Shown: piece by piece, positions 17,951-57,849 of the stretch
How the letters are laid out: every line of letters starts with the position of its first letter
How positions within the stretch are numbered: position 1 is the stretch's first letter
NCBI GenBank assembly: GCA_020445665.1
Contig: JAGRGD010000225.1
Coordinates: 1 to 63,804, forward strand
Reading direction: 5' to 3'
DNA length: 63,804 nucleotides
DNA from: Rhodocyclaceae bacterium
Lineage (GTDB): Bacteria; Pseudomonadota; Gammaproteobacteria; Burkholderiales; Rhodocyclaceae
The notes under the pieces: generated by a model
The model's input: only the letters and a program-made list of their open reading frames with translations
What the model was told of the DNA's origin: nothing
Database searches by the model: none
Position numbers and translations under genes: made by a program

Positions 17951-18885
17951 AAGCCGCGTCTGCGGCCGACCTGCTGCTGTTTGCCGAGGTGGTGGAGGCC
18001 GGTAGCTTCACCGCCGCAGCCGACCGTCTCGGCCTGCCGAAGTCGTCGGTCTCCCGCCGGATCGCAGCCCTCGAGGCGCGCCTTGGCGAACGCCTGCTCA
18101 CACGCAGCACGCGCCGTCTGGCCTTGACCGACTTTGGCTCTGCGCTGCAGGCCCACGCCCGCCGCGTCGCCGAGGAGGTCGAGGCGGTGCAGGCCCTGGC
18201 CGAACATCGCCGCAGCGAACCGAGTGGTCTGCTTCGGGTGTCGATGCCGGGGGATTTCGCGATGCTGACGCTGCCGCAGATGCTCACCGACTTCACCCGT
18301 CGGCACCCGCGGATCGTGCTTCAGCTCGACCTTTCCCCTCGTCGGGTGGATCTGCTGGCAGAGAATTTCGACCTGGCGATTCGCATGGGTGTGCTGCCCG
18401 ATGACGCGACCCTGGTCGCCCGCCGCCTGGCCGAGTTCGAGTTCGGCCTTGTGGCGGCGCCGGCCTACCTGGCCGTGGCAGGGATGCCCCGCCACCCCGA
18501 GTCGCTGCCCGCCCACCGCTGCATCGCCGTGCTGACCCGCGACGGCCGCTCGATGCCATGGCACCTGCAACGCGAGGCCGAGCACTGGAGCGGCGCACTG
18601 GCGGAACCGATCGCGGCCAACTCGATGGGCGTACTGGTGCAACTGGCGCGGGCAGGGGCCGGCATTGCCGCGGTGAGCCTGCACTACGTCGAAGAGGCCC
18701 TTGAGCAGGGGGAACTGGTGCGACTGTTGCCGGATTGGCGCATGCCCTCCAACCCGGCCTGGGCGGTCATGCCGAGCCGGCGGCTGGTGCCGCCCAAGAC
18801 CCGCGCCTTCATCGATGCCCTCAAGGGGGAACTGGCCCGCTGGGCCGGGCCCGGCCGCCCCGTCGCGCCCGGCCCCGCAGGGTGA
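17938..18885 (+). CDS. LysR-family transcriptional regulator, divergent from azoR
   Basis: 315 aa from the ATG at 17938; a TTG three codons upstream is possible. The N-terminal helix-turn-helix is [20 protein letters not shown] with [20 protein letters not shown]. The C-terminal half is a typical effector-binding domain. A perfect inverted repeat surrounds its start codon. It probably controls the azoR-pirin unit, as such pairs often do. The inducer is not known. Confidence 0.88.
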
Positions 18886-18898
18886 CACAGTGTCCCGG
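18882..18898. promoter_or_regulatory. Candidate upstream activator site, H4MPT operon
   Basis: GTGACACAGTGTCCCGG contains the 11-bp palindrome GACACAGTGTC. It differs at one base from the site at 43611-43627 upstream of fhcB. It lies about 75-90 bp upstream of the -24 element at 18973, a usual distance for an enhancer-like site of a sigma54 activator. It overlaps the last codon and stop of the LysR gene. Confidence 0.55.
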
Positions 18899-18972
18899 TT
18901 CGCGCAGGGCGGTGCGCTCCGATCTGCGGTGCCGCGGGCGGCGAGCGTGCTGTGGCGGTGCAAAGCCCCGGC

Positions 18973-18988
18973 TGGAATGGGGCTTGCT
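18973..18988 (+). promoter_or_regulatory. Candidate sigma54 promoter, beta-RFAP synthase/mtdB/mch/fae operon
   Basis: TGGAAT-N5-TTGCT has the GG and GC dinucleotides at the exact -24/-12 spacing. The predicted transcription start is near 18999, leaving a leader of about 41 nt before the ATG at 19040. The -24 half is weaker than the xoxF and fhc copies (AAT in place of CAC). The match is supported by an upstream dyad shared with the fhc promoter. Confidence 0.55.
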
Positions 18989-19039
18989 TTGTTTGCGCCC
19001 TGACCCAGAATCCGCCGCGCTGTCGTCCCTGCCTGCCCC

Positions 19040-20071
19040 ATGACCCAGACCCTCCGCCACATCAGTCCCGTGCCGTCCCCTGTCCGGGTCGAGGCACCGG
19101 CGCGCCTGCATCTCGGCTTCCTCGACCCCAGCGCCTCGCTCGGGCGTCACTTTGCCAGCCTCGGTCTGGTCATCGACGGCCTCGGCACGGTCGTGGACGT
19201 GCTGCCGTCGAGCATGAACGAGGTGAGCCTGGATGGTCCGGCCGACGAGGCGGTCGCGTCGCGATTGCGCTGGCAGCTGGCGCGCCTGCAGGGCGAGACC
19301 GGCGCCGGCCATCCGGTCCGGGTGGTCTTGCGCCGCGCGCCGCTGGCCCACTGTGGCCTGGGTTCGGGCACGCAACTGGCGCTGGCCCTCGGGCGTGCCT
19401 TCGCACGCTCCCACGGCATTGCGCTCGACAGCCGGCAGATCGCGCAGATGCTCGGCCGCGGCGAGCGCTCCGGCATCGGTATCGCCGGCTTCGACCATGG
19501 CGGCCTGTTGCTCGATGGCGGCCCCGGCGCCGGGCGGCAACCCGCGCCGCTGCTGGCTCGGGCCACGTTCCCGGAGGCCTGGCGGGTGGTGCTTGTGCTC
19601 GACCAGGCGATGCACGGCCTGCACGGCAGCGAGGAGCGACAGGCGATGGCCAGCCTGCCGCCTTTCGCCGAAGAGCGTGCGGCTGCGATGTGCCATCAGG
19701 TGCTGATGCGGGTGCTTCCGGCAGCCCTCGAGGCCGATTTCCAGCCCTTTGCGGACGGCGTGACGGCCATCCAGCGCCAGATCGGCGACTACTTCGCGGA
19801 TGCGCAGGGGGGCTCGATGTTCACCAGTGAGCGGGTGGGCCGTGCCGTCGAATGGCTTGGTGAGCGCCATCGCGCCGGCATCGGCCAGAGTTCCTGGGGA
19901 CCGACCGGCTTCGCCATCTTCCCCAGCGAGCAGGCGGCGAGGTCGGCGGTCGGGGCGGCGACCGAGGCGGGCGTGATCGGCGGGCGGCTCAAGGTCGAGA
20001 TCGTCAGCGGCCGCAACAGCGGCGGGAGAACCGTCGTCGGCAAGGACGCCATGGGCCCGCTCGCGGGCTGA
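19040..20071 (+). CDS. Beta-ribofuranosylaminobenzene 5'-phosphate synthase (beta-RFAP synthase)
   Basis: 343 aa. It catalyses the first committed step of H4MPT synthesis, joining para-aminobenzoate and phosphoribosyl pyrophosphate with loss of CO2. Family features are the GHMP-kinase-like fold with VEAPARLHLGFLDPSASLGR, the glycine-rich LAHCGLGSGTQLALALGRAF, GRGERSGIGIAGFDHGG and the C-terminal GIGQSSWGPTGFAIF. It corresponds to orf4 in Methylobacterium extorquens. It is the first gene of a seven-gene operon ending with fae, preceded by a candidate sigma54 promoter. The pabBC fusion at 49025 could supply its para-aminobenzoate. Confidence 0.93.
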   Translation: MTQTLRHISPVPSPVRVEAPARLHLGFLDPSASLGRHFASLGLVIDGLGTVVDVLPSSMNEVSLDGPADEAVASRLRWQLARLQGETGAGHPVRVVLRRAPLAHCGLGSGTQLALALGRAFARSHGIALDSRQIAQMLGRGERSGIGIAGFDHGGLLLDGGPGAGRQPAPLLARATFPEAWRVVLVLDQAMHGLHGSEERQAMASLPPFAEERAAAMCHQVLMRVLPAALEADFQPFADGVTAIQRQIGDYFADAQGGSMFTSERVGRAVEWLGERHRAGIGQSSWGPTGFAIFPSEQAARSAVGAATEAGVIGGRLKVEIVSGRNSGGRTVVGKDAMGPLAG

Positions 20072-20098
20072 CCGGAATCATCAGGAGAGAGATGCAGC

Positions 20099-21004
20099 AT
20101 GCAGCGACAGACCATTCTTCACATGTTCACCCCGGGCAAGCAGATGAGCCCCTTCGACATCAACATGGCGGTAGATGCCGGCTTCCAGGTGGTCGTGCCC
20201 TATTGCGGTGTCGGTGAAGACGAGATCCGCGGCATGACGCAGGACGCGATCTTCTCGCGTGGCCCGAAAGGGGTGAAGGCGACCGGCATCTTCATTGGCG
20301 GGCGCGATGTGCTTCTGGCCGCAGACATGCTCGAGACTGCCCGAAAGTCGATGGTGCCGCCCTTCGAGGTGTCGGTGATGGCCGACCCCAGCGGCTCCTA
20401 CACCACCGCCGCGGCGCTGGTCGCCTGCGTCGAGCGCCAGCTTCGCCTGAGCCACGACACGGGCCTGTCCGGGCGGCGGGTGGCGATCCTCGGGGGTACC
20501 GGCACGGTGGGTCGTATCGCCGGCGTGCTGGCGGCCGGCGAGGGCGCCACGGTCATCCTCGGCAGCCACCGGGACGCGGCAACCGCCGAGCGGGCCGCCG
20601 ACGAGACCGGCGCGCGTTTCGACTGTCGCCTGTCCGGCGCCGATGCGGGCGCTGGCGCCGCCCGGCGCGCCCTGATCGCGGACGCGGACGTGGTCCTCGC
20701 CACCGCCGCCGCGGGTGTGCAGGTCATGGACGCCGCCGATCGCGAGGCCGCTGGCGCGCTGCTGGTGGCCGCGGATGTGAACGCCGTGCCGCCGGAGGGC
20801 ATTGCCGGGGTGGGCGTCATGGACGACGGCAAGGCGCTGCCGGGCGGCAAGGCGGTGGGGATCGGTGCGCTGGCGGTCGGCAACGTCAAGTACCAGACCG
20901 AGCAGCGGCTGCTGGCGAGCATGATCGGCGCCGACAAGCCGCGCTACATCGGCTTCCACGAGGCGTTCGCGATGGCCCGTGAGGTGGCGGCCGAGAAGGA
21001 CTGA
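20099..21004 (+). CDS. mtdB: NAD(P)-dependent methylene-H4MPT dehydrogenase
   Basis: 301 aa with an AGGAGAGAG ribosome binding site. It oxidises methylene-H4MPT to methenyl-H4MPT in the cytoplasm. The N-terminus (TILHMFTPGKQMSPFDINMA) and VVPYCGVGEDEI are characteristic of the MtdA/MtdB family, and the nucleotide site is VAILGGTGTVGRIAGVLAAG. I favour MtdB over the NADP-specific MtdA because of its place between beta-RFAP synthase and mch. Cofactor preference cannot be proved by eye. No second copy (mtdA) or fch is in the window. Confidence 0.92.
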   Translation: MQRQTILHMFTPGKQMSPFDINMAVDAGFQVVVPYCGVGEDEIRGMTQDAIFSRGPKGVKATGIFIGGRDVLLAADMLETARKSMVPPFEVSVMADPSGSYTTAAALVACVERQLRLSHDTGLSGRRVAILGGTGTVGRIAGVLAAGEGATVILGSHRDAATAERAADETGARFDCRLSGADAGAGAARRALIADADVVLATAAAGVQVMDAADREAAGALLVAADVNAVPPEGIAGVGVMDDGKALPGGKAVGIGALAVGNVKYQTEQRLLASMIGADKPRYIGFHEAFAMAREVAAEKD

Positions 21005-21011
21005 CAGCCGG

Positions 21012-22139
21012 GTGGCCACGCGCGAGCGTCCCTGTGTGCTGGTGGCCGGCCTGTCGGTGCGACAGCTGGCCCAGGCCTGCCGGGCAGATGGCTTCGACGT
21101 GATCGCCGCCGACTGCTTCGGCGACGCCGACACCGTCGCCGCGAGCCGGCGCTGGTTTCCGGTCGGCCAGGCAGGCGCCCTCGCACTCGACCCGGGCCGA
21201 CTGATCCCGCTCCTGGCCAGCCTCGCGGAGGCTGGCGAAGTGGATGGCTGGATCGCCGGCAGCGGTTTCGAGGGGCAGGTCGAGTGGCTCGCCGAAGGGG
21301 CGCGGCGTCTGCCCCTGTGGGGCAATCCGGCGGCGGTGGTGGACCGCGTGCGGGACCCCCGCCACTTCTTCGCCGCGCTCGATGCCCTGGCAATCGACCA
21401 TCCGCCGGTGCGCTTCGACAGCGTCGATGCGGCTGGCTGGCTGCAGAAGGATTTCGGCGGCTGCGGGGGGTGGCACATCCGCCCGGCCGTGCGTGGCGCG
21501 GTCCTCGGATCGCGGGGCTATTTGCAGAAACGGGCGGCGGGAGAGCCGATGTCGGCCCTGTTCCTCGCGCACGGGGGACAAGCCGAGTTGCTGGGCCTGG
21601 CCAGGCAGCGGTTCCAGCCCCTGGGGCGGCGGCCGTTCGTTTTCCGCGGTTGCGTGGGGCCGGTGACGGTCGCACGCCCTATCGCGGACGAAATCGGAAG
21701 AATCGTCCAGGCGCTGGCCTCGGTGTTTCCGCTGCAGGGGCTCAACGGCGTGGACTTTCTGAGCGATGCCGGCCGGGTGCGTGTGCTCGAAGTCAATCCC
21801 CGCCCCACGGCGAGCATCGCCGTGCATGGGGCGGGCCTGATGCGGGCCCATCATCGCGCCTGTGCAGATGGTGTGCTGGCGGCGCCGGCGGTGCCGGCGG
21901 AGCGCCCTGCGATGCGTGGCGAGGAGATCGTGTTCGCCCGCCGACCGCTTCGACTCGACGCGTCGGACTGCGCGGCGATCGAGAAGGCCGGCTGGTGTCA
22001 CGACTTGCCCCGAGAGGGCGCCCGGCTCGCCTGGGGCGATCCCCTGTGCAGTGTCAGCGCGACGGGCGGCGACTGCAAAGCGGTGGCGGACGAACTCGAC
22101 CGCCGCAGAGAAGAAACCTTGACTTGGGTGGAGCATTGA
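21012..22139 (+). CDS. ATP-grasp protein of the H4MPT gene cluster (OrfY-like)
   Basis: 375 aa from a GTG 7 nt after the mtdB stop; an in-frame ATG at 20979 inside mtdB is a less likely start. It has an ATP-grasp arrangement: ERPCVLVAGLSVRQLAQACR at the N-terminus, RDPRHFFAALDALAIDHPPV, and metal-binding FPLQGLNGVDFLSDAGRVRV followed by LEVNPRPTASI. Genes of this kind sit next to mtdB and mch in other methylotrophs, under the name orfY as I recall it. It probably ligates an amino acid or similar group to a C1 cofactor. The exact substrate is unknown. Confidence 0.8.
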   Translation: MATRERPCVLVAGLSVRQLAQACRADGFDVIAADCFGDADTVAASRRWFPVGQAGALALDPGRLIPLLASLAEAGEVDGWIAGSGFEGQVEWLAEGARRLPLWGNPAAVVDRVRDPRHFFAALDALAIDHPPVRFDSVDAAGWLQKDFGGCGGWHIRPAVRGAVLGSRGYLQKRAAGEPMSALFLAHGGQAELLGLARQRFQPLGRRPFVFRGCVGPVTVARPIADEIGRIVQALASVFPLQGLNGVDFLSDAGRVRVLEVNPRPTASIAVHGAGLMRAHHRACADGVLAAPAVPAERPAMRGEEIVFARRPLRLDASDCAAIEKAGWCHDLPREGARLAWGDPLCSVSATGGDCKAVADELDRRREETLTWVEH

Positions 22140-22140
22140 T

Positions 22141-23148
22141 ATGGAACAGGACAAGCCGGCCATCCCCGGCGCCAATCTGAGCGTCAATCACCTGGCCGCA
22201 CCGCTCGTGGCGCGCCTCGTCGCCAACGCCGCAAGCCTGGGCGTGGTGGTCGAGACCGATGCCTCGGGCGCCACGATCGTCGATGCCGGCATCGATGCCG
22301 CAGGCAGCGTCGAGGCCGGGCTCCTGATCGGCGAGATCTGCATGGGCGGCCTTGGACGGGTGCACCTCGCGAGCCGCGCCCGCGAGGGCTGGCCGGACTG
22401 GCTCGAGGTGACCAGCGCCCGTCCGGTGCTGGCCTGCCTGGGCAGCCAGTATGCGGGCTGGAGCCTGGCTGCGAGCAAGGAGGAGGCCGGCGGCAAGAAA
22501 TTCTTCGCCCTCGGTTCCGGGCCGGCACGTGCCTTGTCCGTGCGCGAGGATCTGTTCGCGGAGCTGGGCTATCGGGATCACTGCGACTCCGGGGCTCTGG
22601 TGCTCGAGGTGGATCGGCGCCCCCCCCGCGTGGTGATCGACAAGGTCCTGACCCAGTGCGGCCTCGATCCGGCCGGGCTGACCATCGTGTTGACCCCCAC
22701 TTCCAGCCTGGCGGGTACCACCCAGGTCGTGGCGCGGGTCCTCGAGGTGGCGCTGCACAAGGCCCACGAGCTGGGCTTTCCCCTGGCGGCGATCGTTGAC
22801 GGCAGCGCCTGCGCGCCGCTGCCGGCGCCAAGCCCGGACGGGGTCGAGGCGATGGGGCGGACCAACGACGCGATCCTCTACGGTGGCCAGGTGCGCCTGA
22901 CGGTGCGGTGCGACGACGCCGAGGCCGAGCGGCTCGCCCGCGAGCTGCCGTCGTCCAGTTCGAAGGACTATGGCCGCAGCTTTGCCGATACCTTCCGCGA
23001 GGTGGAGTTTGACTTCTACAAGATCGACCCGGGCCTGTTCGCGCCCAGCGAGGTCTGGGTCAGCAACGTCGCCAGCGGTCGCAGCTGGCGGGCCGGCGGA
23101 CTCGACATGGGCCTGCTGCGCAGCCTGTGGCTGGGCGCGCCGGCATGA
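22141..23148 (+). CDS. mch: Methenyltetrahydromethanopterin cyclohydrolase
   Basis: 335 aa. It hydrolyses methenyl-H4MPT to formyl-H4MPT. Recognised by LSVNHLAAPLVARLVANAAS, ICMGGLGRVHLAS, VTSARPVLACLGSQYAGWSL, FFALGSGPARAL, and the tail EVEFDFYKIDPGLFAPSEVW. The gene starts 1 nt after the upstream stop and overlaps the next start as ATGA. It is the only cyclohydrolase for the H4MPT branch in the window. Confidence 0.97.
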   Translation: MEQDKPAIPGANLSVNHLAAPLVARLVANAASLGVVVETDASGATIVDAGIDAAGSVEAGLLIGEICMGGLGRVHLASRAREGWPDWLEVTSARPVLACLGSQYAGWSLAASKEEAGGKKFFALGSGPARALSVREDLFAELGYRDHCDSGALVLEVDRRPPRVVIDKVLTQCGLDPAGLTIVLTPTSSLAGTTQVVARVLEVALHKAHELGFPLAAIVDGSACAPLPAPSPDGVEAMGRTNDAILYGGQVRLTVRCDDAEAERLARELPSSSSKDYGRSFADTFREVEFDFYKIDPGLFAPSEVWVSNVASGRSWRAGGLDMGLLRSLWLGAPA

Positions 23149-24110
23149 GCGGCGAGTCGGCTAGGCCGCGCGTCGCGATCCTGACCGACGAGACCGGCTG
23201 GCATACCCGCAAGCTGCGCGAAGCCCTGGCCAGGCGCGGCTTCGAGGGTCGCTGCGCCGATCTGGCCGACTGCCGCTTCGACAGCGGGGCGCCAAATGGC
23301 CTGGTCATTCCCGGCTTCTCGCGCCGCCTGCCGGTGGCCGTGATCGTGCGAGGGATCGCCGGCGGCACCCTCGAGCAGATCACCAAGCGGCTGGGCATCC
23401 TGCACGCCCTGCGCGAAATGGGCGTTCCGGTCTACAACGACGCGCGGGCCATCGAGCGCAGCGTCGACAAGGCGATGACCAGCTTCCTGCTGGCCCGCGC
23501 TGGCGTGGCGACCCCCCAGGCCTGGGCCGTCGAATCCGAGGTCGAGGCCCGGCGGATCCTGATGCGGGAGGCCTCGGCCGGGCGCAGCCTGGTCCTGAAG
23601 CCAATGTTCGGCTCCCAGGGCAAGGGCATCGTTCGCGTGGGCCTGGTCGATGGCGAGGTCGTGCCCTTGCCGGACCTGAAGGCTTACGGCCAACTCGCCT
23701 ACCTGCAGCGTTTCGTCCCCCAGCCGCAGCAGGGCGGATTCGACTGGCGGGTGCTGGTGGTCGGCGGGCGCGCCGTGGCGGCGATGCAGCGGGTGAGCGA
23801 CCACTGGATTCGCAATATCGCGCGGGGCGCGCGCAGCGTCGCGGCCCCGCTGACGCCCGGCCTTGCCGCGCTGGCCGAGGCGGCATCGGATGCGCTGGGC
23901 ATGGACTATGCCGGTGTCGACCTGCTGCCGGACGCCGCCGCACCGGGTGGGGCGGTGGTCATGGAGGTCAATGGTGTTGCCGCGTGGCGCGGCCTGCAGC
24001 GGGTCACCCCGGTGGATATCGCGGCCGCCATCGTCGATGACCTCCTCACGCGGCGACTTGGTCTGCCACGCCAGGGCGGGACGCCGATCGCGGGGTCGGC
24101 CCTGCCGTGA
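23145..24110 (+). CDS. RimK-like ATP-grasp ligase of the H4MPT gene cluster
   Basis: 321 aa. A RimK/MptN-type ATP-grasp protein: VAILTDETGWHTRKLREALA at the N-terminus, then GVPVYNDARAIERSVDKAMT, ATP-binding LVLKPMFGSQGKGIVRV, and the metal site VVMEVNGVAAWRGLQRV. Relatives add glutamate to H4MPT or F420-type cofactors. A glutamylation step on H4MPT or methylofuran is therefore a reasonable but unproven role. It is tightly packed, with ATGA overlap at the start and GTGA overlap at the end. I recall the equivalent M. extorquens gene as orf5, but this label is from memory. Confidence 0.83.
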   Translation: MSGESARPRVAILTDETGWHTRKLREALARRGFEGRCADLADCRFDSGAPNGLVIPGFSRRLPVAVIVRGIAGGTLEQITKRLGILHALREMGVPVYNDARAIERSVDKAMTSFLLARAGVATPQAWAVESEVEARRILMREASAGRSLVLKPMFGSQGKGIVRVGLVDGEVVPLPDLKAYGQLAYLQRFVPQPQQGGFDWRVLVVGGRAVAAMQRVSDHWIRNIARGARSVAAPLTPGLAALAEAASDALGMDYAGVDLLPDAAAPGGAVVMEVNGVAAWRGLQRVTPVDIAAAIVDDLLTRRLGLPRQGGTPIAGSALP

Positions 24111-25066: not shown

Positions 25067-25088
25067 TCTCAAAAACGGAGACAGAAGA

Positions 25089-25598
25089 ATGGCAAAGATC
25101 GATCGCATGTTGGTTGGCGAATCCCTGGTCGGTGACGGCAACGAAGTCGCTCACATCGACCTGATCCTGGGCCCGCGGGGCAGCGCTGCCGAAACCGCCT
25201 TCGCCAACGCGCTGACCAACAACAAGGACGGCTTCACGTCCCTGCTTGCGGTCGTCGCCCCGAACCTGCTGTGCAAGCCCGCCACCGTGATGTTCAACAA
25301 GGTCACGATCAAGGGCGCCAAGCAGGCCGTGCAGATGTTCGGCCCGGCCCAGCGCGCGGTCGCCATGGCGGTGGCCGACAGTGTCGAGGACGGCACGATC
25401 CCGGCCGACGAGGCCGACAACATCTTCGTCAGCGTCGGTGTTTTCATCCACTGGCTGGCAGAGGACGACGCCAAGATCCAGGAGTACAACTACAAGGCGA
25501 CCCGCGAGGCGATCCAGCGCGCCGTCGCCGGCAGCCCCACGGCCGCCGAAGTGGTTGCCAAGAAGGGCAGCTCGGCGCACCCGTTCGCGGCCAACTGA
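25089..25598 (+). CDS. fae: Formaldehyde-activating enzyme
   Basis: 169 aa. It condenses formaldehyde with H4MPT to methylene-H4MPT, the entry point of the pathway. Hallmarks are [20 protein letters not shown] (with the catalytic histidine H22), [39 protein letters not shown], the [19 protein letters not shown] region and the C-terminal HPFAAN. It starts 22 nt after the CitG-like gene and is the last gene of the operon. A strong terminator follows. Confidence 0.98.
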
Positions 25599-25667: not shown

Positions 25668-25683
25668 CGCTGCTCCCGCCGCC

Positions 25684-26568: not shown

Positions 26569-28545
<1,977 letters not shown>

Positions 28546-35175: not shown

Positions 35176-35335
35176 CGTGTTCTCGTTGTAGCTGCCAGGG
35201 ACTCACGATCCATGCCAGCCGGGGCGATGGGCCGTGGTTTCCCCGGTCGGGTCCCCCGTGCGTAGCACATCGGTCTGCGCCGGGGTGTCGGCCGCTGCAC
35301 CCGGGACCGGTTCCGTGTGGTGGCCGAGGAGCAAA

Positions 35336-35380
35336 GTGTCACGTCGCAGTGTGTAACCGATTTCACGGTCGTCGTGACAC
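35336..35380. promoter_or_regulatory. Candidate activator-binding cluster upstream of xoxF
   Basis: Half-sites GTGTCAC (35336-35342), CAGTGTG (35347-35353) and GTGACAC (35374-35380) resemble parts of the GTGACACAGTGT dyad found upstream of fhcB and the beta-RFAP synthase operon. None is a full match. They lie 135-180 bp upstream of the -24 element, a distance sigma54 enhancers often use. Confidence 0.4.
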
Positions 35381-35513: not shown

Positions 35514-35529
35514 TGGCACATGACTTGCA
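35514..35529 (+). promoter_or_regulatory. Candidate sigma54 promoter of xoxF
   Basis: TGGCAC-N5-TTGCA is almost the textbook -24/-12 consensus with exact spacing. Transcription should begin near 35540. The surrounding 18 bases agree with the fhcB promoter at 16 positions. Confidence 0.75.
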
Positions 35530-35675: not shown

Positions 35676-37478
35676 ATGATCGCAGGGCTTAAGCACAAGG
35701 TGGCGGCCGCACTGGCCTGCATGACCGCAGCAGGTTTCGCTGTGGCGGATGCGGACCTGGATCGGGCCATGAAGAACCCGGGCAACTGGGCATCGCAGGC
35801 GGGCGACGAGTACAACCAGCGCTACAGCTCGCTGGACCAGATCAACGCCGGCAACGTCGGTAATCTCCAGGTGGCATGGACCTTCTCGACCGGTGTGCTG
35901 CGCGGTCACGAGGGCTCCCCGCTGGTCATCGGCGACATGATGTACATCCACTCGCCCTTCCCGAACAACGTTTACGCCGTCGATCTCAACACCCAGCAGA
36001 TCGTCTGGAAGCACACGCCGAAGCAGGACTCGGCCGTGATCGCGCAGATGTGCTGCGACACCGTCAACCGGGGCCTGGCCTACGGCGACGGCAAGGTCTT
36101 CCTGCAGCGTGCCGACTCGGTCCTCGAGGCGCTTGACGCCAAGACCGGCAAGGTGGTCTGGCAGGCCACCAACGGCGATCCGAAGCTGGGCGCCGTCAAC
36201 ACCAACGCACCGCACATCTTCGGCGACAAGGTCATCACCGGTATCTCCGGTGGCGAGTGGGGCGTGCGCGGCTACATCTCCGCCTACAACATCAAGGACG
36301 GCAAGATGGCGTGGCGCGGCTACTCCGTCGGCCCCGACGCCGAGATGCTGATGGACCCGGCCAAGTCCATGACCTGGGCCGATGGCAAGATGCAGCCGGT
36401 CGGCAAGGACTCCTCGCTGAAGACCTGGAAGGGCGATCAGTGGAAGATCGGTGGCGGCACGACCTGGGGCTGGTATTCCTACGATCGCGCAGAGAACCTG
36501 CTCTACTACGGGACCGGCAACCCCTCGACCTGGAACCCGACCCAGCGTCCGGGTGACAACAAGTGGTCGATGAGCATCTGGGCCCGCGACCTCGACACCG
36601 GCATGGTCAAGTGGGTCTATCAGATGACGCCGCACGACGAGTGGGACTTCGACGGCATCAACGAGATGATCCTCGCGGACATCGACGTCAAGGGCAAGAA
36701 GCGCAAGGCCCTGGTTCACTTCGACCGCAACGGCTTTGGCTACACGCTGGACCGGATCTCGGGTGAACTGCTGGTGGCCGAGAAGTATGACCCGGTGGTG
36801 AACTGGGCGACCCACGTGGACATGAAGACCGGTCGTCCGCAGGTCGTGGCCCAGTACAGTACCGAGCACAACGGCGAGGACGTGAACTCCAAGGGCATCT
36901 GCCCGGCCGCACTCGGTACCAAGGACCAGCAGCCTGCCGCCTTCCATCCGAAGACCGGCCTGTTCTACGTGCCGACCAACCACGTGTGCATGGACTACGA
37001 GCCGTTCGAGGTGGAGTACACCGCCGGTCAGCCGTACGTCGGCGCCACGCTGGCCATGTACCCGGCGCCGAACAGCCATGGTGGCATGGGCAACTTCATC
37101 GCCTGGGACGCCGGCGCGGGCAAGATCGTCTGGTCCAAGCCGGAGCAGTTCTCGGTCTGGAGCGGCGCGCTCACCACGGCCGGTGATGTGATCTTCTATG
37201 GCACCCTGGAAGGCTACCTGAAGGCGGTGAACCTGAAGGACGGCAAGGAGCTGTGGAAGTTCAAGACCCCGTCCGGCATCATCGGCAACGTCTTCACCTA
37301 CCTGCACAAGGGCAAGCAGTACGTCGGTGTGTACTCGGGTATCGGTGGCTGGGCCGGCATCGGCATGGCCGCGGGCCTCGAGAATGACAGCGACGGCCTG
37401 GGTGCGGTCGGTGGCTACCGCGACCTGCAGAAGTACACCAACCTTGGTGGTTCCCTGACGGTCTTCGCCCTGCCGTAA
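35676..37478 (+). CDS. xoxF: Lanthanide-dependent PQQ methanol dehydrogenase XoxF
   Basis: 600 aa, eight-bladed quinoprotein of the periplasm with signal peptide [20 protein letters not shown]. It oxidises methanol, to formaldehyde or formate, and passes electrons to a c-type cytochrome. It shows the vicinal disulfide C126-C127 (QMCCDT), metal ligands E194 (GGEWGVRG) and N282 (GTGNPSTWN), catalytic D324, and the extra D326 in WDFDG. The extra Asp marks lanthanide rather than calcium enzymes. No mxaF is present. The start at 35676 is preferred over an out-of-frame ATG 4 nt earlier. The gene heads the xoxFGJ cluster and is followed by a terminator. Confidence 0.98.
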
Positions 37479-40887: not shown

Positions 40888-40951
40888 CCCGGTTCGCGCG
40901 ACCCCGCCCGGTCAGGAAGGCGGGGCGCTGGACTCACCATTGGAGACAGAC

Positions 40952-43610: not shown

Positions 43611-43658
43611 GTGACACAGTGTGCCGGTCCCTCCGCGGCGCCATTGACACACTGTGCG
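43611..43658. promoter_or_regulatory. Two candidate upstream activator sites between the beta-propeller gene and fhcB
   Basis: GTGACACAGTGTGCCGG (43611-43627) and TTGACACACTGTGCG (43644-43658) share a TGACACA-S-TGTGC core. Their cores are 33 bp apart, about three helical turns, so both face the same side. They lie 45-90 bp upstream of the fhc -24 element. The first copy is a 16/17 match to the site at 18882. Confidence 0.6.
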
Positions 43659-43700: not shown

Positions 43701-43716
43701 TGGCATATGTCTTGCA
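43701..43716 (+). promoter_or_regulatory. Candidate sigma54 promoter of fhcBADC
   Basis: TGGCAT-N5-TTGCA with exact -24/-12 spacing. Transcription should start near 43727, two bases before the fhcB ATG. The element matches the xoxF promoter at 16 of 18 bases. Confidence 0.72.
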
Positions 43717-43728
43717 CTCCGGGCTCGC

Positions 43729-44967
43729 ATGAACGAAACAACGCCCCCGCCCGCGGCCGCACCTGCGCTCGCCGCCCACTGGACCTGCCCGTTCTGCCCT
43801 CTGCTGTGCGATGACCTCCAGCCCGACGCCGCGACGCTCGGGCTGCCGGACTCGGCCTGTCCGCGCGCCCGGGACGGGCTCTCTGCCCTGGCAGGTGCGC
43901 CCGCCTCCGGTGCCCGCGTTGACGGACGGGCTGCCGACCTCGACGACGCCCTGGCCGCTGCCGCAGCGCGCCTCGCCGCCGTGCGCCAGCCCCTCATGGC
44001 AGGACTCGGGGGCGACGTGGCTGCCGCTCGTGCCGCATTCCGGCTGGCCGCTGCCGTGGGTGCGATCTGCGATGCGGTCGGGGGCGATGCGTTGGTGCAG
44101 GGGCTGCGCGTGCAGCAGGACCGGGGGGGCTTCAACCTGACCCTCGCCGAGGTACGGGAGCGGGCCGACCTGGTGGTCTTCGTCGGCAGCTGGCCCGAGG
44201 GCAGGGCGCCGCGCCTGATCGAGCGATTCACGGCCGGTCGTGATCAGGGGCCCGCGATGGTGGCTCTGGGCGCCGTGCCGATGGCGGAGGGGGTCGAGAG
44301 CGTGTTGCCGGTGGCCGCGCTGGCCGACAGCCTGACGATGCTCTCGGCGCTCGTCGCCGGGCGACGACTGGAACGCCCCAACCCCGAGCTGCAGGTGCTG
44401 GCCGAGCGCCTGCGCGCTGCGCATTACGCGGTGCTGGTGTGGGAGCCGGCTCAGCTGGGGCCGCACGGCGGACTGCTCATCGAGATGATCCAGCGCATTG
44501 TCGTGACCCTGAACCAGAGCACCCGCGCCGCCGGTTTCCCGCTGGCCGGTGCCAATGGCGCCGCCACCGCCAACCAGGCCTTCACCTGGCTCGGTGGCCT
44601 GCCCCTGCGCAGCCGCATCGGCCACCACGCCATCGAGCACCAGCCCCAGCGCTACGGCGCCGCACGACTGGTGGCAGAGGGTGAGACGGACCTCCTCCTC
44701 TGGGCCAATCCGTTTCCGGGGGTGGTGCCGATCGACACACCGCTGCCACGCATCGTCCTTGCGGCCCCGGATGCCGCGGCGACGCTGGGCGACGAGTCGA
44801 ACACCATCTTCATTCCCGTGGCCACGCCCGGCGTTCACCACAGGGGGCATCTGTTCCGCACCGACGGTGTCGTGCTGATGCCGCTCTTCGCGTTGCGGGA
44901 GGACGGTCTGCCCCCGCTGGCGGAGGTGCTGGGCCGCCTCGCCGAGGCGATGGAGGGCGGCGCATGA
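43729..44967 (+). CDS. fhcB: Formyltransferase/hydrolase complex subunit B (formylmethanofuran dehydrogenase B homologue)
   Basis: 412 aa. FhcB is related to the molybdenum/tungsten subunit of archaeal formylmethanofuran dehydrogenase, but the bacterial family is thought to have lost that catalytic role and to act as a structural subunit. The N-terminal CPFCPLLCDDL keeps a Cys cluster motif. The rest includes QPLMAGLGGDVAAARAAFRL and GHHAIEHQPQRYGAARL. No upstream ribosome binding site is seen and no other start codon is near. With a transcription start predicted 2 nt upstream, the mRNA may be leaderless. It is the first gene of fhcBADC. Confidence 0.93.
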   Translation: MNETTPPPAAAPALAAHWTCPFCPLLCDDLQPDAATLGLPDSACPRARDGLSALAGAPASGARVDGRAADLDDALAAAAARLAAVRQPLMAGLGGDVAAARAAFRLAAAVGAICDAVGGDALVQGLRVQQDRGGFNLTLAEVRERADLVVFVGSWPEGRAPRLIERFTAGRDQGPAMVALGAVPMAEGVESVLPVAALADSLTMLSALVAGRRLERPNPELQVLAERLRAAHYAVLVWEPAQLGPHGGLLIEMIQRIVVTLNQSTRAAGFPLAGANGAATANQAFTWLGGLPLRSRIGHHAIEHQPQRYGAARLVAEGETDLLLWANPFPGVVPIDTPLPRIVLAAPDAAATLGDESNTIFIPVATPGVHHRGHLFRTDGVVLMPLFALREDGLPPLAEVLGRLAEAMEGGA

Positions 44968-46649
44968 AAACCCTCAGACTGCGGGGCGGTCGCGTCGTCG
45001 ATCCGGCCAACCCGGGCAGCGGCACCATCCGGGACATCGGCGTGCGCGACGGTCGGATCGTGGACCTCCACCCGGACGCGCCGGCGGACGAAGTGATCGA
45101 CTGCGGCGGCTGCCTGGTGATGGCCGGCGGGATCGACCTGCACACCCACATCGGCGGCGGCAAGGTGAACCTGGCCCGCCTGCTGCTGCCCGAACTGCAG
45201 CGCGACTGCTGCACCCCGGACGCGGCCCAGGCCTGGCCCGAGGCGCTCGACCCGGCCGCCCACGTGGTGCCCGGCACCCTGCTCACCGGCTACCGCTATG
45301 CCCAGATGGGCTACACCTCGGCCTTCGAGCCGGCGATGGTGCCGGCCAACGCCCGCCACGCCCATATGGAGATGGGCGACGTCCCGATCCTCGACCACGG
45401 CGCCTACGTGATGCTCGGCAGCGACGAGCTGCTGCTGCGCTGGATGGCCGAGGGCAAGCCCTTCGAGCAGATCCGCGACTACATCGGCTGGACCCTCAAC
45501 GCCACCAAGGCCCTCGGCCTCAAGGTGGTCAACCCGGGCGGCATCTCGGCCTTCAAGTTCAACCAGCGCAAGCTCGATGTGGACGAGCACCACAGCCACT
45601 GGCGGGTCACGCCGCGGGACATCCTGCACACCCTGGCGCGGGGGCTGACCGAGCTGGGCGTGCCGCACCCGCTGCACATCCACGGCAGCAATCTGGGGAT
45701 CCCCGGCAACATCGAATCGACCCTCGCCACCATCGACGCCCTCGAGGGCCTGCGCGCCCACCTGACCCACATCCAGTTCCACAGCTACGGAACCGAGGGG
45801 CCGAAGAAGTTCTCGTCGGCGGCGCTGCAGCTGGTCGAGGCGGTCAACCGCCACCCCAACATCAGCATCGACGTGGGCCAGATCATGTTCGGCCAGACCG
45901 TCACGGCCTCCGGTGACACCATGCGCCAGCTCGCCAATGCCCACCACGCCAGCCCGCGCAAGTGGGTCGGCGCCGACATCGAGTGCGATGCCGGCTGCGG
46001 CGTGGTGCCCTTCCGCTACAAGGAGCAGAGCTACGTCAACGCGCTGCAGTGGGCCATCGGCCTCGAGATCTTCCTGCTGGTCAAGGACCCGTGGCGGGTG
46101 GTGCTGACCACCGACCACCCCAACGGCGGCCCCTTCACCAGCTACCCGCACCTGATCCGCCTGCTGATGGACCGGGACTTCCGCAACGAGCAGCTGGCCC
46201 GCATCCACCCCGACGTGGCGGCCAACTCGGCCCTCAAGGACATCACCCGCGAGCTGACGCTCGACGAGATCGCGATCATGACCCGCGCCGGCCCGGCCCG
46301 CCTGCTCGGCCTCGCCGACCGGGGCCACCTGGCCGCCGGGGCGGCGGCGGACATCGCCGTGTATCGCGAAGCCGGAGACCCCGAATCGATGTTCACGACA
46401 CCCGAGCACGTCTTCAAGGACGGTGTCCGCGTGGCCTACAAGGGGCGCATCACGGCCTCGCCGGTGGGTGGCACCCACTTCGTCGAGCCCGCGTTCGACC
46501 GGGGCATCGAGAAGCACCTCAAGGCCCACCACGATGTGCATGGCAGCGTGCGCTTCGAGCACCTGGCGATCAGCCACGACGAGCTGTGCGAGTGCAGCCG
46601 TTGCGGCGGCACCCACGTGGTGGCCTGCGAGCCGGGAGGGGCGGTCTGA
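44964..46649 (+). CDS. fhcA: Formyltransferase/hydrolase complex subunit A (formylmethanofuran hydrolase)
   Basis: 561 aa amidohydrolase. It hydrolyses formyl-methylofuran to formate. The metal-binding motif GGIDLHTHIGGGKVN, the conserved ISAFKFNQRKLDVDEHHSHW, LTHIQFHSYGTEG and VLTTDHPNGGPFTSYPHL are intact. It overlaps fhcB as ATGA and shares TGATG with fhcD. In M. extorquens FhcA holds the methylofuran carrier in a complex with FhcD. Confidence 0.97.
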   Translation: MKTLRLRGGRVVDPANPGSGTIRDIGVRDGRIVDLHPDAPADEVIDCGGCLVMAGGIDLHTHIGGGKVNLARLLLPELQRDCCTPDAAQAWPEALDPAAHVVPGTLLTGYRYAQMGYTSAFEPAMVPANARHAHMEMGDVPILDHGAYVMLGSDELLLRWMAEGKPFEQIRDYIGWTLNATKALGLKVVNPGGISAFKFNQRKLDVDEHHSHWRVTPRDILHTLARGLTELGVPHPLHIHGSNLGIPGNIESTLATIDALEGLRAHLTHIQFHSYGTEGPKKFSSAALQLVEAVNRHPNISIDVGQIMFGQTVTASGDTMRQLANAHHASPRKWVGADIECDAGCGVVPFRYKEQSYVNALQWAIGLEIFLLVKDPWRVVLTTDHPNGGPFTSYPHLIRLLMDRDFRNEQLARIHPDVAANSALKDITRELTLDEIAIMTRAGPARLLGLADRGHLAAGAAADIAVYREAGDPESMFTTPEHVFKDGVRVAYKGRITASPVGGTHFVEPAFDRGIEKHLKAHHDVHGSVRFEHLAISHDELCECSRCGGTHVVACEPGGAV

Positions 46650-47575
46650 TGGCTGAACCCCGTATCGAGAACGGCGTCGTCATCGACGACACCTTCGCCG
46701 AGGCCTTCCCGATGAAGGCCACGCGCCTGATCATCACGGCCCACAACCCCACCTGGGCGATGCACGCCGCGACGGCCACCACCGGCTTCGCCACCTCGGT
46801 CATCGCCTGCGGCTGCGAGGCCGGCATCGAGCGGGTGCTGTCGCCCGGGGAGACCCCCGACGGCCGGCCCGGCGTCGCGGTGCTGATCTTCTCCATGTCG
46901 GGCAAGGAGCTCGCCAAGCAGATCGAGCGACGGGTCGGCCAGTGCGTGCTGACCTGCCCGACGACGGCGGTGTACGCCGGCCTTGACGAGGGCGAGCCGG
47001 TGGCCCTCGGCCGCAATCTGCGCTTCTTCGGCGACGGCTGGCAGATCTCCAAGATGATCGACGGCAAACGCTACTGGCGGGTGCCGGTGATGGACGGCGA
47101 GTTCGTCGCCGAGGAGACCACGGCGGTCACCAAGGGGGTCGGCGGCGGCAACCTGCTGATCCTCGCCCGCGACACCGACACCGCGCTGGCGGCCGCGGAG
47201 GCCGGCGTGGCGGCGATGCGCTCGGTGCCCAACGTGATCATGCCCTTCCCCGGCGGGGTGGTCCGCTCCGGCTCCAAGGTCGGCAGCAAGTACCCGGCCC
47301 TGATGGCCTCCACCAACGACGCCTTCTGCCCGGCGCTGACGCCGCTGGCGAAGAAGTCCGAACTGTCCGACGAGGTACGCTGCGTGATGGAGATCGTGAT
47401 CGACGGCCTCACCGACGCCGACGTCTCCGCCGCCACCCGCGCCGGCATGGACGCCATCATCGCCCGCGGCAGTGCCGCCGGCGTGGTGCGCCTGTCCGCC
47501 GGCAACTACGGCGGCAAGCTGGGGCCTTTCCACTTTCATCTGCACAAGCTGCTGGACGGGGAGGGCGCCGCATGA
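46649..47575 (+). CDS. fhcD: Formylmethanofuran:H4MPT formyltransferase
   Basis: 308 aa. It moves the formyl group from formyl-H4MPT to the methylofuran carrier, before hydrolysis by FhcA. Recognised by IENGVVIDDTFAEAFPMKAT, AHNPTWAMHAATATTGFATS, GVGGGNLLILARDTDTALAA and LSAGNYGGKLGPFHFHLHKL. It overlaps fhcA by one base and fhcC by four. Confidence 0.97.
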   Translation: MAEPRIENGVVIDDTFAEAFPMKATRLIITAHNPTWAMHAATATTGFATSVIACGCEAGIERVLSPGETPDGRPGVAVLIFSMSGKELAKQIERRVGQCVLTCPTTAVYAGLDEGEPVALGRNLRFFGDGWQISKMIDGKRYWRVPVMDGEFVAEETTAVTKGVGGGNLLILARDTDTALAAAEAGVAAMRSVPNVIMPFPGGVVRSGSKVGSKYPALMASTNDAFCPALTPLAKKSELSDEVRCVMEIVIDGLTDADVSAATRAGMDAIIARGSAAGVVRLSAGNYGGKLGPFHFHLHKLLDGEGAA

Positions 47576-48390
47576 GCCAGGCCTGTCACCTGCGCCTGAA
47601 GCACGCCCTGCCGGTGGGCGTCGATGCGTCGACCCTGCTGCCGGAGCGGCTCGCAACCCTCTCCATCGACGAAATCGCCCGCCTGCCCCTGGAACTGGGG
47701 CGCGACCTGGTCGCCGTGGGCGATCTGTTCGACATTTCGCTGCGTGAGGCCGATGGCGTCGAACTGCGTTTCGAGGGGGACTGCCGCAAGCTGCATGGCG
47801 TCGGCCGGGCCATGGGCGAAGGCCGCCTGGTGGTGGACGGCCCGGTCGGCGACCAGGTCGGTGTCGAGATGCGCGGCGGCGAGATCCAGGTCTGCGGCGA
47901 CGCCGGTGACCTGGCCGGCGGCGCCATGGCCGGCGGCCGGCTCGAGATCGGCGGATCGGTCGGCGACTTCGCCGCCTCGACCCTGCCCGGTGCCATGGAC
48001 GGCATGCGCGGCGGGGTGCTGATCGTGCGCGGTGACGCCGGCGACCGCTTCGGCGACCGGATGCGCCGCGGCGTGGCGGTGGTCCACGGCCGCACCGGCG
48101 ACTTTCTCGCCTCGCGGATGGTGGCCGGCACGATCGCCCTGGCCGGCGAGACCGGCGAGCACCCGGGCCACGGCATGCGGCGCGGCACCCTGGTGTTCGC
48201 CGGCGCGCAGCCGCGGGTGCCCGACACCTTCTCCGCCACCCACCACGACACCCGCGTCTTCTGGGCCCTGATGGCCCGCAGCCTGGCCCCCTTCGGCGCG
48301 CCCTTCGACGGCCTCGCGGCACGCTGCCCGGCCCGGGTGGTCGGCGACCTGGGCGCCGACGGCAAGGGCGAGTGGATGCTGCCCGCCTGA
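47572..48390 (+). CDS. fhcC: Formyltransferase/hydrolase complex subunit C
   Basis: 272 aa. Structural subunit of the Fhc complex with a GltS-C-terminal-like beta-helix made of G-x-x-G repeats (GVEMRGGEIQVCGDAGDLAG, MAGGRLEIGGSVGDFAAS, MRRGVAVVHGRTGDFLASRM). It is the last gene of the fhc operon, with 49 nt before the Fae paralogue and an AGGAG ribosome binding site for the latter, so the next gene may still be co-transcribed. Confidence 0.95.
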   Translation: MSQACHLRLKHALPVGVDASTLLPERLATLSIDEIARLPLELGRDLVAVGDLFDISLREADGVELRFEGDCRKLHGVGRAMGEGRLVVDGPVGDQVGVEMRGGEIQVCGDAGDLAGGAMAGGRLEIGGSVGDFAASTLPGAMDGMRGGVLIVRGDAGDRFGDRMRRGVAVVHGRTGDFLASRMVAGTIALAGETGEHPGHGMRRGTLVFAGAQPRVPDTFSATHHDTRVFWALMARSLAPFGAPFDGLAARCPARVVGDLGADGKGEWMLPA

Positions 48391-52488: not shown

Positions 52489-52492
52489 GGCA

Positions 52493-55564: not shown

Positions 55565-55708
55565 GGGGTTCTCCGATTTCCAGGAAGCCGCGGTGCGGCG
55601 ACAGGTCCATTGGGCGCCTGCGACGCCGGCGTGCGTGTAGGACGATGCCGGCCCGCCCTGACGGTCGATGCCGATTCGGGAGGCGGGGCGGAGAATCGGG
55701 AGGGTGGC

Positions 55709-56197: not shown

Positions 56198-56306
56198 CGG
56201 GGTTCCACTCGGGTCGAGGCCGCATTGTCCCCCAGGCCATGGCGGGACGCGAGCACGCTGGGCGGGCAGCCCCTACAATGCCGCCCATCAACAGGGGAGG
56301 GACGAA

Positions 56307-57512
56307 ATGCTGGTCAGGAAGCAGACGGCGCGTTGGCAGGCGGGGGCGGCGGATGATTCGGGCAGCCTCAGCCTGGCGGAACTGGCCGAGTCCTTCGGGA
56401 CGCCGTTCTACCTGACCGTCTCGGCCGCCATCGACGAGCGGATCGGCGAGCTGCGCGAGGCTTTGCCGGCCGGGATGCGCCTGCTCTATTCCATCAAGGC
56501 GAATCCGCTGCTCGGCATCGTGGCGCGCCTCGCCGGCCAGGTGGATGGCTTCGACGTGGCTTCGGCGGCAGAGCTCGAGTCGGCCCTGGCCTGCGGTGTC
56601 AGCGGTGGCGCATTGTCGATGACGGGCCCTGGCAAGCGGGACGACGACCTGGCCGCTGCCGTGGCCTGCGGTGCGCGGGTGGTGCTCGAATCGGAGGACG
56701 AAGCGCGTCGTCTCGCCCGCCTGGCCGCTGGTGCGACCGCGCGCGTGCTGCTGCGTGTCAATCCGCCCTTCGAACTGGCGGCCGAGGCGCGCATGGGCGG
56801 CGGTCCGCGCAAGTTCGGTGTCGACTCGGAGCAGGCCGGCGAGGTGCTGCGGGCGATTGGTCGCCTGCCGCTGGCCTTCGAAGGCCTGCACGTCTATCCG
56901 GGTTCCAATTGTCTCGACGCCGGCGCCATTGCCGCGGCCCAGCGCGCGGCCCTCGCGCTTGCCGCGGAACTTCTCCCCTTCGCGCCCGCCCCGCTGCGGA
57001 CGCTGAATCTTGGGGGCGGTTTCGGTATTCCCTGCTTCCCCGGCGAGCAGCCGCTCGACCTTGCCGCGCTGGGCGAGGCGATGCACGAAGTGGCGCGGGA
57101 GGCGGCCCGCCGCCTGCCCGCGTGTGAGCTCAGCCTGGAACTGGGGCGCTACGTGGTGGGAGAAGCCGGCGCCTACGTGGCGCGGGTGCTGGAGCGCAAG
57201 GCATCGCGGGGTCGGACCTACCTGATCCTCGACGGCGGCCTTCACCATCACTGGCATGCCACCGGGGCCCTCGAGGGGCGACGCCACCTGCATTTTCCGA
57301 TGTGGGTGGTGGGGGGGGACGACCGGCCGCTCGAGGAGGTGACCGTCTGTGGGCCCCTCTGCGCCCCCCACGACACCTGGGCCGAGAACCTGAGCCTGCC
57401 GCGGGCGGCGCCGGGCGACCTCGTCATCGTCTACCAGTCGGGCGCCTACGGGGCCGGCGCAAGCCCGGTTGGCTTCATGCAACGCCCGGAGGCGGCCCAG
57501 GTCCTGGCCTGA
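56307..57512 (+). CDS. Fold-type III PLP-dependent decarboxylase (LysA/ornithine decarboxylase-like)
   Basis: 401 aa. The PLP lysine is in RLLYSIKANPLLGIVARLAG. Glycine-rich phosphate binding (LNLGGGFGIPCFPGEQPLDL), ELGRYVVGEAGAYVARVLER, and VCGPLCAPHDTWAENLSLPR with YQSGAYGAGASPVGF complete the family pattern. Relatives decarboxylate diaminopimelate, ornithine or amino-acid adducts. The LysA role is not certain because no neighbouring lysine genes occur. Position between folK and formate dehydrogenase hints at a link to cofactor synthesis, but this is speculation. Confidence 0.85.
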   Translation: MLVRKQTARWQAGAADDSGSLSLAELAESFGTPFYLTVSAAIDERIGELREALPAGMRLLYSIKANPLLGIVARLAGQVDGFDVASAAELESALACGVSGGALSMTGPGKRDDDLAAAVACGARVVLESEDEARRLARLAAGATARVLLRVNPPFELAAEARMGGGPRKFGVDSEQAGEVLRAIGRLPLAFEGLHVYPGSNCLDAGAIAAAQRAALALAAELLPFAPAPLRTLNLGGGFGIPCFPGEQPLDLAALGEAMHEVAREAARRLPACELSLELGRYVVGEAGAYVARVLERKASRGRTYLILDGGLHHHWHATGALEGRRHLHFPMWVVGGDDRPLEEVTVCGPLCAPHDTWAENLSLPRAAPGDLVIVYQSGAYGAGASPVGFMQRPEAAQVLA

Positions 57513-57520
57513 GCCCGCCC

Positions 57521-57548
57521 GCCTGTCACCGCCGGGGGCGTGACAGGC
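57521..57548. repeat. Inverted repeat after the decarboxylase gene, one arm similar to the activator site
   Basis: GCCTGTCAC (57521-57529) and GTGACAGGC (57540-57548) are perfect inverted repeats around a 10-nt spacer, 9 nt after the decarboxylase stop. It may be a terminator without a T run. The right arm, extended as GTGACAGGCTGTACCGG (57540-57556), also resembles the GTGACACAGTGTSCCGG sites at 18882 and 43611. Confidence 0.5.
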
Positions 57549-57833
57549 TGTACCGGGATCGGTAACTGTTTCGCTGGCGCCTGGCGATACGCCGGGTCCG
57601 GCGCGGCCTCTGGCGGCGTTCGATTTATCCGGACAGGCATCCGGGAAATCTCGATTTCCGGATCGCGTCGTGGCCGCTAGTCTTGTCGCCAGCCTGGTGC
57701 AAGGGCTGGCGGCGACCGGTTCCTCTCCTCTCTCCCGCACCGATCCCCTCGATAGGTGTGTTCGTCGCAGTCGGCACCGGGCGTTTTTTTGCCTCGCGCG
57801 GCACCTCCAGGTCCGGGTCCGCACCGTCGTGGC

Positions 57834-57849
57834 TGGCACGACACTTGTT
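57834..57849 (+). promoter_or_regulatory. Candidate sigma54 promoter of formate dehydrogenase operon
   Basis: TGGCAC-N5-TTGTT has a perfect -24 half and the right spacing. The -12 half has T where C is expected, so it may be a weak promoter. Transcription would begin near 57860. Confidence 0.45.

Follow-up and report, generated by a model that had tools for sequence, protein, structure and literature searches.

The window analysed here is a complete contig of 63,804 nt (JAGRGD010000225.1) from a Rhodocyclaceae bacterium whose draft genome (GCA_020445665.1) comprises 4.79 Mb in 341 contigs. On its plus strand, the genes for a beta-RFAP synthase family protein (bRFAPS), mtdB, mch and fae (19040-25598) are followed by a gene encoding an AcoR-type sigma54 activator (26569-28545) and, further downstream, by additional pterin-type genes, xoxF with a cytochrome c gene and a xoxJ-like gene, a SoxYZ fusion, fhcBADC, a second fae paralogue and the formate dehydrogenase genes (fdh) (Table 1). 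We describe predicted sigma54 promoters in front of four one-carbon (C1) units, namely the tetrahydromethanopterin (H4MPT) genes from bRFAPS to fae, xoxF, fhcBADC and fdh, together with the activator as their candidate common regulator. XoxF carries an EWDFDG motif at residue 322, which fits the extra metal-binding Asp pattern EWD[FY]DG that we take to be a mark of lanthanide-type methanol dehydrogenases. The identity of mtdB is based on a Pfam match only, and fhcB scored below its TIGR03129 cut-off.

An earlier note on this DNA had placed -24/-12-like elements with identical spacing at 18973, 35514, 43701 and 57834, and all four were found there with the same spacing. Scored with a hand-written sigma54 matrix (scores in bits throughout), they occupied ranks 1 to 4 over both strands of the window with 20.1, 19.1, 16.2 and 16.0 bits, the fifth site reaching 14.1 bits, and all four top-ranked sites precede C1 operons. 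Hits of at least 15.9 bits averaged 0.24 in 200 block-shuffled windows, with a maximum of 3, and when the 250-nt stretch upstream of each unit was re-sampled from a Markov model, 2, 2, 6 and 6 out of 5000 re-samples reached this value. The genome also contains rpoN (PF04552, E 1.5e-67). The elements at 18973 (TGGAAT) and 57834 (TTGT) deviate from the consensus at one or two positions and, taken singly, would not convince as promoters. A weak -24/-12-like site at 24980-24995 (13.3 bits), about 110 nt before fae, was poorly kept, with at least 13 bits in 2 of 13 genomes.

Genome-wide, the strict pattern TGGCANNNNNNTTGCW matched 27 times compared with 7 times for its reversed control, two of the 27 matches being the xoxF and fhcB elements of the window. 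The likely downstream protein, taken from the longest open reading frame starting within 20-400 nt, was scanned for 20 of the 25 outside sites, leaving out L008, L013, L017, L020 and L025. Seven of these 20 sites precede classic RpoN-type genes (flagellin, FlgK, FliK, FliE, FliD, an NtrC-like regulator and homocitrate synthase), and the remaining 13 precede genes for three multihaem cytochromes, TonB, a kinase, six other proteins (transport, Sel1, cyclophilin and ferredoxin types) and two proteins without a family. No C1 pathway gene was found behind any of the 20, and -24/-12 sites on their own were therefore rejected as C1 markers. The genome scan proposed in the earlier note, run here in part, thus showed strict elements to be commoner than the control, but not confined to C1 genes. 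On contig C222 of the same genome, strict sigma54 sites before a TonB gene and a kinase gene flank a pyrroloquinoline quinone (PQQ) alcohol dehydrogenase gene (L015, L016, L050); this contig also carries another AcoR paralogue, the match to which holds in-frame TGA codons.

Relatives are labelled g1 for the genus of the own genome, g2, g6, g10, g29, g36, g77, g81 and g99 for further genera, and G with a number for individual genomes. Five g1 genomes carry the C1 operons (the own genome, G001, G002, G003 and G005), and each of the four -24/-12 sites is retained in all five, with fhcB of G005 cut by the contig end. Upstream alignments revealed identical islands inside otherwise diverged DNA. At xoxF, only two runs of at least 6 nt are identical in 5/5 genomes, a 32-nt block and a 17-nt run at the promoter. 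The corresponding runs are CGGTGACACAGTGTG, TTGACACA and TGGCATATGTCTTGC at fhcB, and GTGACA, GTGTCCCG, TGGAATGG and TTGCTT at bRFAPS; at these two genes they consist solely of pieces of the promoter and of the enhancer-like motif described below. Upstream of fdh, the longest identical run is TGGCACGACACTTG, located at the promoter element. In the sixth g1 member, G004, neither bRFAPS nor fhcB was found, the best xoxF and activator matches reached 41%, and an fdhB homologue (57%) is present without a -24/-12 site.

Outside g1, a bRFAPS search over 395 genomes of the family gave 45 matches, 41 of them strong. A site of at least 13 bits within 200 nt was present at 23 of the 31 bRFAPS loci examined, compared with 0/31 in reversed controls; the 23 comprise 5/5 genomes of g1, 4/4 of g77, 1/1 of g99, 9/10 of g81 and one each of g36, g10, g29 and g2, and g6 had such a site in 0/6 genomes. 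We further surveyed the cluster stretches of the window and of 13 relatives from genera other than g6. Gene starts were defined by tblastn, rows that fell under the identity limits or close to the end of a stretch were removed, sites were scored within 300 nt, and the threshold of 13 bits was of our own choosing. Operon heads reached the threshold in 40 of 45 cases versus 9 of 278 other gene starts, and in the reversed sequences 0/45 heads and 1/278 other starts did so. With the own genome counted as one row, the head promoters were present in 12/13 cases at bRFAPS, 13/14 at xoxF, 12/13 at fhcB and 3/5 at fdhB. The misses were bRFAPS of G386 (11.0 bits), xoxF and fhcB of G033 (the latter with 12.4 bits) and two fdhB rows, of which G245 is a distant paralogue and G226 has a site about 590 nt upstream, beyond the 300 nt scored. 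A first set of genomes outside g1, nine of which have an xoxF homologue, showed sites at bRFAPS in G014, G040, G033 and G073, at fhcB in G014 and G073, and at fdh in G014, G033 and G040 (about 600 nt upstream), with no fdh site in G073 and G010; no site was found at xoxF, bRFAPS or fhcB in G010, G064, G070 and G072. In G264, the xoxF and fhcB promoters are present, and fdh was not seen. The conservation in related strains, which the earlier note had wished to see checked, hence extends to all four elements in g1 and to three operon heads in further genera.

That two of the four elements are off consensus and that strict strings also occur elsewhere in the genome could be taken to mean that the elements are chance resemblances to the -24/-12 consensus. 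However, each site is conserved in orthologues and across genera, and the distance from the promoter to the fhcB ATG is constant. Together with the shuffles and the Markov re-samples, orthologue conservation led us to reject this explanation, to which we assign a negligible probability. The prediction of the four elements as sigma54 promoters is well supported by these comparisons.

In the window, the fhcB ATG lies 28 nt after the T of TGG, at about +3 of the predicted transcript (43701-43731), and an in-frame ATG is found 27 or 28 nt after this T in 16/16 genomes (five of g1 and 11 of g77, g99, g81 and g10). Taking the T as -26, the ATG falls at +2 or +3, which leaves no room for a ribosome-binding site, and the fhcB transcript accordingly looks like a conserved leaderless or near-leaderless RNA. 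As to alternative starts, G003 and G005 contain a downstream in-frame GTG (T+54 and T+48) and three other genomes an upstream GTG (T+21 or 22); a further in-frame ATG lies inside the fhcB promoter (T+6) in four g1 genomes.

Besides the promoters, the conserved islands share a second, enhancer-like part that was absent from the claims of the earlier note. This putative upstream activating sequence (UAS), located upstream of bRFAPS, fhcB and fdh, reads GTGACAS-N-STGT and then continues with CCG-like bases; at xoxF it occurs in a degenerate inverted form. Exact GTGACACAGTGT has two matches in the genome, both of them in the window. The wider pattern GTGACASNSTGT has four, three of which are located at the bRFAPS, fhcB and fdh promoters and the fourth inside a coding sequence near def and fmt, of LysM type as judged by eye. 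UAS hits above 11 bits in the window numbered 7 versus 3.6 in shuffles, and those above 16 bits numbered 3 versus 0.24. The bRFAPS and fhcB sites stand out, whereas the fdh site (11.1 bits) does not by score alone. Across the four units, the putative enhancer is strong at bRFAPS and at fhcB; at fdh, where GTGACAGSCTGTM is retained in 5/5 g1 genomes, it is weak though conserved, and at xoxF it is inverted and degenerate.

Table 1. Genes, predicted promoter elements and candidate enhancers of the window
Feature	Position	Strand	Remarks
-24/-12 element TGGAATGGGGCTTGCT	18973..18988	+	heads the beta-RFAP synthase - mtdB - mch - fae unit
-24/-12 element TGGCACATGACTTGCA	35514..35529	+	heads xoxF
-24/-12 element TGGCATATGTCTTGCA	43701..43716	+	heads fhcBADC
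-24/-12 element TGGCACGACACTTGTT	57834..57849	+	heads the formate dehydrogenase unit
bRFAPS UAS GTGACACAGTGTCCCG	18882..18897	+	91 nt upstream of promoter TGG; GTGACA and GTGTCCCG identical in 5/5 g1 genomes
xoxF upstream block GGAGCAAAGTGTCACGTCGCAGTGTGTAACCG	35328..35359	+	two UAS-like half-sites, inverted, degenerate; identical in 5/5 g1 genomes
fhcB UAS1 GTGACACAGTGTGCCG	43611..43626	+	90 nt before the -24/-12 element of fhcB
fhcB UAS2 TTGACACACTGTGCG	43644..43658	+	looser copy, 33 nt after UAS1, at -57; TTGACACA run identical in 5/5
fdh UAS candidate TGTCAC-N10-GTGACAGGCTGTACCG	57524..57555	+	294 nt upstream of the element; weak, about 11 bits
AcoR-type sigma54 activator	26569..28545	+	GAF-PAS-AAA+-HTH_8; between fae and xoxF; candidate regulator of the four units
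beta-RFAP synthase family gene (bRFAPS)	19040..20071	+	H4MPT operon head; TIGR00144 above cut-off, stricter equivalog NF040726 below
H4MPT operon downstream of bRFAPS (mtdB, ATP-grasp, mch, RimK-like, CitG-like, fae)		+	Pfam
fae, formaldehyde-activating enzyme	25089..25598	+	TIGR03126 above cut-off, 250.7 bits
xoxF-type PQQ methanol dehydrogenase	35676..37478	+	TIGR03075 above cut-off; then cytochrome c and xoxJ-like genes
fhcB-fhcA-fhcD-fhcC	43729..48390	+	fhcA TIGR03121 above cut-off; fhcD by Pfam FTR
formate dehydrogenase	57911..62427	+	NuoEF-like subunit 57911-59629; molybdopterin alpha subunit about 59650-62427, TIGR01591 above cut-off

The presence of an AcoR-type sigma54 activator in the window, also put forward in the earlier note, is borne out by its domains, a GAF domain (PF01590), a PAS domain (PF08448, E 9e-6), an AAA+ domain (PF00158, 204.8 bits) and a Fis-type helix-turn-helix (HTH) domain (PF02954); the AAA+ domain contains both key motifs, GETGAGKE (Walker A) and GAFTGA. 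The nearest named records of the protein are the Rhodocyclaceae metagenome-assembled genomes (MAGs) HKST-UBA161, 162, 163 and 165, followed by Aromatoleum toluvorans (70%), an Azoarcus MAG (66%) and Paraburkholderia oxyphila (56%). Orthologues with 83-91% identity are present in 4/4 other g1 genomes with C1 genes. Further orthologues occur in g77 and g99 (68-72%, 5/5 genomes) and in G033 (53%), where the gene shares a contig with the C1 genes. No match above 43% was found in 10/10 genomes of g81. There and in G014 (L231-L232) the -24/-12 promoters are retained and a different AcoR clade is found in the cluster; the cluster AcoR genes of G354, G386, G226, G174, G308 and G014 belong to this other clade according to a quick tree with SH-aLRT values only.

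The UAS mostly follows this distribution, with exceptions. In g77 and g99 it scored 11.7-20.0 bits at bRFAPS and 12.9-20.0 bits at fhcB, with G385 showing 14.5 bits on the other strand at bRFAPS; in G033 it is located between bRFAPS and fhcB, and Aromatoleum toluvorans has a bRFAPS promoter with a UAS. For the 21 promoters from g81 and G014, the highest UAS score was 12.1 bits, followed by 9.6. Presence or absence of the UAS thus appears to separate activator carriers from non-carriers well, though not perfectly. A k-mer count over 21 promoters gave no clear enhancer common to g81 and g10, and the g81 alignment revealed a conserved block at xoxF and none that was seen to be common to fhcB and bRFAPS. 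This xoxF block, TGTNNCAAAA-N3-AGCAC(T/C)TG, differs from that of g1 (g81 stretches L202-L204, L211-L213 and L219-L230).

Since each site is conserved in orthologues, the enhancer-like motif is rare in the genome, and the activator gene comes and goes with the C1 genes in the genus, we consider it likely that the four C1 units constitute one sigma54 regulon under the activator encoded at 26569. One activator would then probably turn on most or all of the methanol-to-CO2 pathway together. The single switch proposed in the earlier note is therefore something we infer from site conservation, the rare shared motif and the co-occurrence of activator and C1 genes in g1, and Paraburkholderia oxyphila and g6 do not follow it, G073 doing so only in part.

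Several observations weigh against this reading. The UAS pattern was drawn up only after the sites had been seen. With one mismatch, GTGACACAGTGT has 4 genome matches versus 3 for the reversed control, and for GTGACASNSTGT about 2 matches are expected genome-wide from composition and 2 were obtained with the reversed control; the argument is therefore carried by the placement and conservation of the sites and not by their number. Reversed UAS controls reach 19.5 bits and provide no valid null, since reversal leaves a near-palindrome much the same. At xoxF, the UAS is both inverted and degenerate, and the identical runs TCGATTT, GCACCGG and CCGCAC upstream of fdh have no explanation. In the first outside set, a site at xoxF was found in G014 only, and the fhcB promoter of G265, a member of g81, keeps GTGACACACTCGG with 12.1 bits, equal to some activator carriers. 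The fdh UAS is 294 nt away from the promoter, weak (11-12 bits) and near chance level in the window by score. This would fit an activator that covers part of the pathway only (bRFAPS/fae, fhc and xoxF), with fdh under its own sigma54 activator or other control, and a second AcoR gene, divergent from fdhB, is indeed found in G014 and G226. Nevertheless, GTGACAGSCTGTM is kept throughout g1 and the fdh site is among the four genome-wide pattern matches, and we regard such partial coverage as rather unlikely.

The choice of the activator is likewise affected, as it was assigned to the units by position and co-occurrence and is one of about two dozen in the genome (25 Sigma54_activat matches). The promoters might be real and respond to another of these roughly 25 activators, an AcoR paralogue or a protein of the NtrC type, with the product of 26569 controlling something else. 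The same promoters occur in g81 and G014, where a 26569-type activator is missing, and where a member of the other AcoR clade was seen in these clusters it lies after pabB or divergent from fdh. Conversely, an activator homologue occurs without the promoters in Paraburkholderia oxyphila, which has no element at bRFAPS or fae, and in g6 (45%, same clade), with none at fhcB or xoxF of G010 either. G073 (49%, same clade) has the bRFAPS and fhcB sites but lacks a UAS as well as sites at xoxF and fdh. On the other side, the activator stands among the C1 genes in g1, g77, g99 and G033 and the GTGACAC-type UAS is found there, whereas it is mostly not found in g81, and in G004 activator and C1 genes are absent together. 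A different activator for the four units is, in our judgement, less probable still than partial coverage. The regulon pattern is not matched by order-level relatives, by genus g6 or by Paraburkholderia oxyphila.

If the four units form one regulon under the 26569 activator, RNA polymerase with sigma54 would wait at the -24/-12 promoter before each of them. The activator would probably sense a small C1 signal, with methanol, formaldehyde and formate as candidates, through its N-terminal GAF/PAS region, and its Fis-type HTH would bind the roughly palindromic enhancer GTGACAC-N-GTGTC-CCG, 57-294 nt upstream. Its GAFTGA loop would contact sigma54, ATP hydrolysis would open the four promoters, and methanol oxidation through to CO2 would be induced jointly. 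The promoter step follows established knowledge of RpoN. The binding of the activator to the UAS, the identity of the inducer, the induction itself and the role of the fdh enhancer are deduced with less certainty.

A more tentative proposal, possible but not one we would rank as probable, joins these observations. In a group of Rhodocyclaceae-type betaproteobacteria, the methanol-to-CO2 route may be wired to sigma54 such that the core promoters outlived a swap of activator and enhancer, with the GTGACAC-type UAS and a 26569-type activator in g1, g77 and g99, the other AcoR clade and the xoxF block TGTNNCAAAA-N3-AGCAC in g81, and G265 perhaps still carrying traces of the earlier UAS. In addition, the fhc operon may begin with a sigma54 transcript that is conserved as (near-)leaderless, which would couple induction directly to translation independent of a Shine-Dalgarno sequence.

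Two neighbouring loci were recorded alongside. A second, diverged Fae-family gene follows fhcC (48440-48976) and is retained in those stretches of g77, g81 and g99 that show fhc (80-87% identity). Downstream of xoxF lie a metallo-beta-lactamase gene and the SoxYZ fusion (39955-41791); the available part of PMC11237559 discusses a SoxYZ-S4 type that neighbours xoxF and fdh genes.

Sigma54 regulons governed by an enhancer-binding protein are already known as a kind of system. As the earlier note had supposed for this group, no description of sigma54 control of XoxF, H4MPT and formate genes was found in the open-licence literature searched, as far as the excerpts of these papers extend. According to the part of PMC11845868 at hand, XoxF regulation needs further study, and a figure legend there lists a GAF-modulated sigma54 regulator gene with xox cluster genes without giving a regulon. 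In the excerpt of a methanotroph study, methane and carbon genes are given RpoD promoters, and nitrogen genes RpoN promoters (PMC12403871). That of a broad sigma54 comparison mentions formate dehydrogenases and not methanol (PMC12316311), and that of a Paraburkholderia phymatum study tabulates formylmethanofuran dehydrogenase A and FTR among changed genes, with no RpoN link shown (PMC5748707). For XoxF regulation outside model methylotrophs, an open question in the same partial text of PMC11845868, a concrete activator, enhancer and four promoters are now named, all of which are testable. If the regulon exists as proposed, methanol oxidation in this group, which comes from wastewater and soil, would be an ATP-gated, jointly induced programme, and the signature of UAS and -24/-12 element could predict further members.

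The activator shares its domain order of GAF, PAS, AAA+ and Fis-type HTH with the AcoR/DhaR enhancer-binding proteins, and its best NCBIfam match is DhaR, far under the cut-off (282 of 551 bits). Known AcoR/DhaR members serve acetoin or dihydroxyacetone operons. MxbDM, MxcQE, MxaYB and PedS2R2, which govern mxaF/xoxF or pedE/pedH switching of PQQ alcohol dehydrogenases according to the excerpt of PMC11845868, differ in being two-component systems. In Methylocella and others, the sigma54 regulator gene mmoR likewise adjoins a C1 oxidation operon, as stated in the accessible part of PMC6778391, but its neighbours are the soluble methane monooxygenase genes and not those for XoxF, H4MPT enzymes or formate dehydrogenase. 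BmoR of Thauera butanivorans is, in the available text of PMC8784404, a sigma54-dependent activator of an alkane oxidation operon that acts at the butane monooxygenase promoter and responds to C2-C8 alcohols; set apart by description and not by sequence, it serves one operon, whereas the window holds four units covering the route from methanol to CO2.

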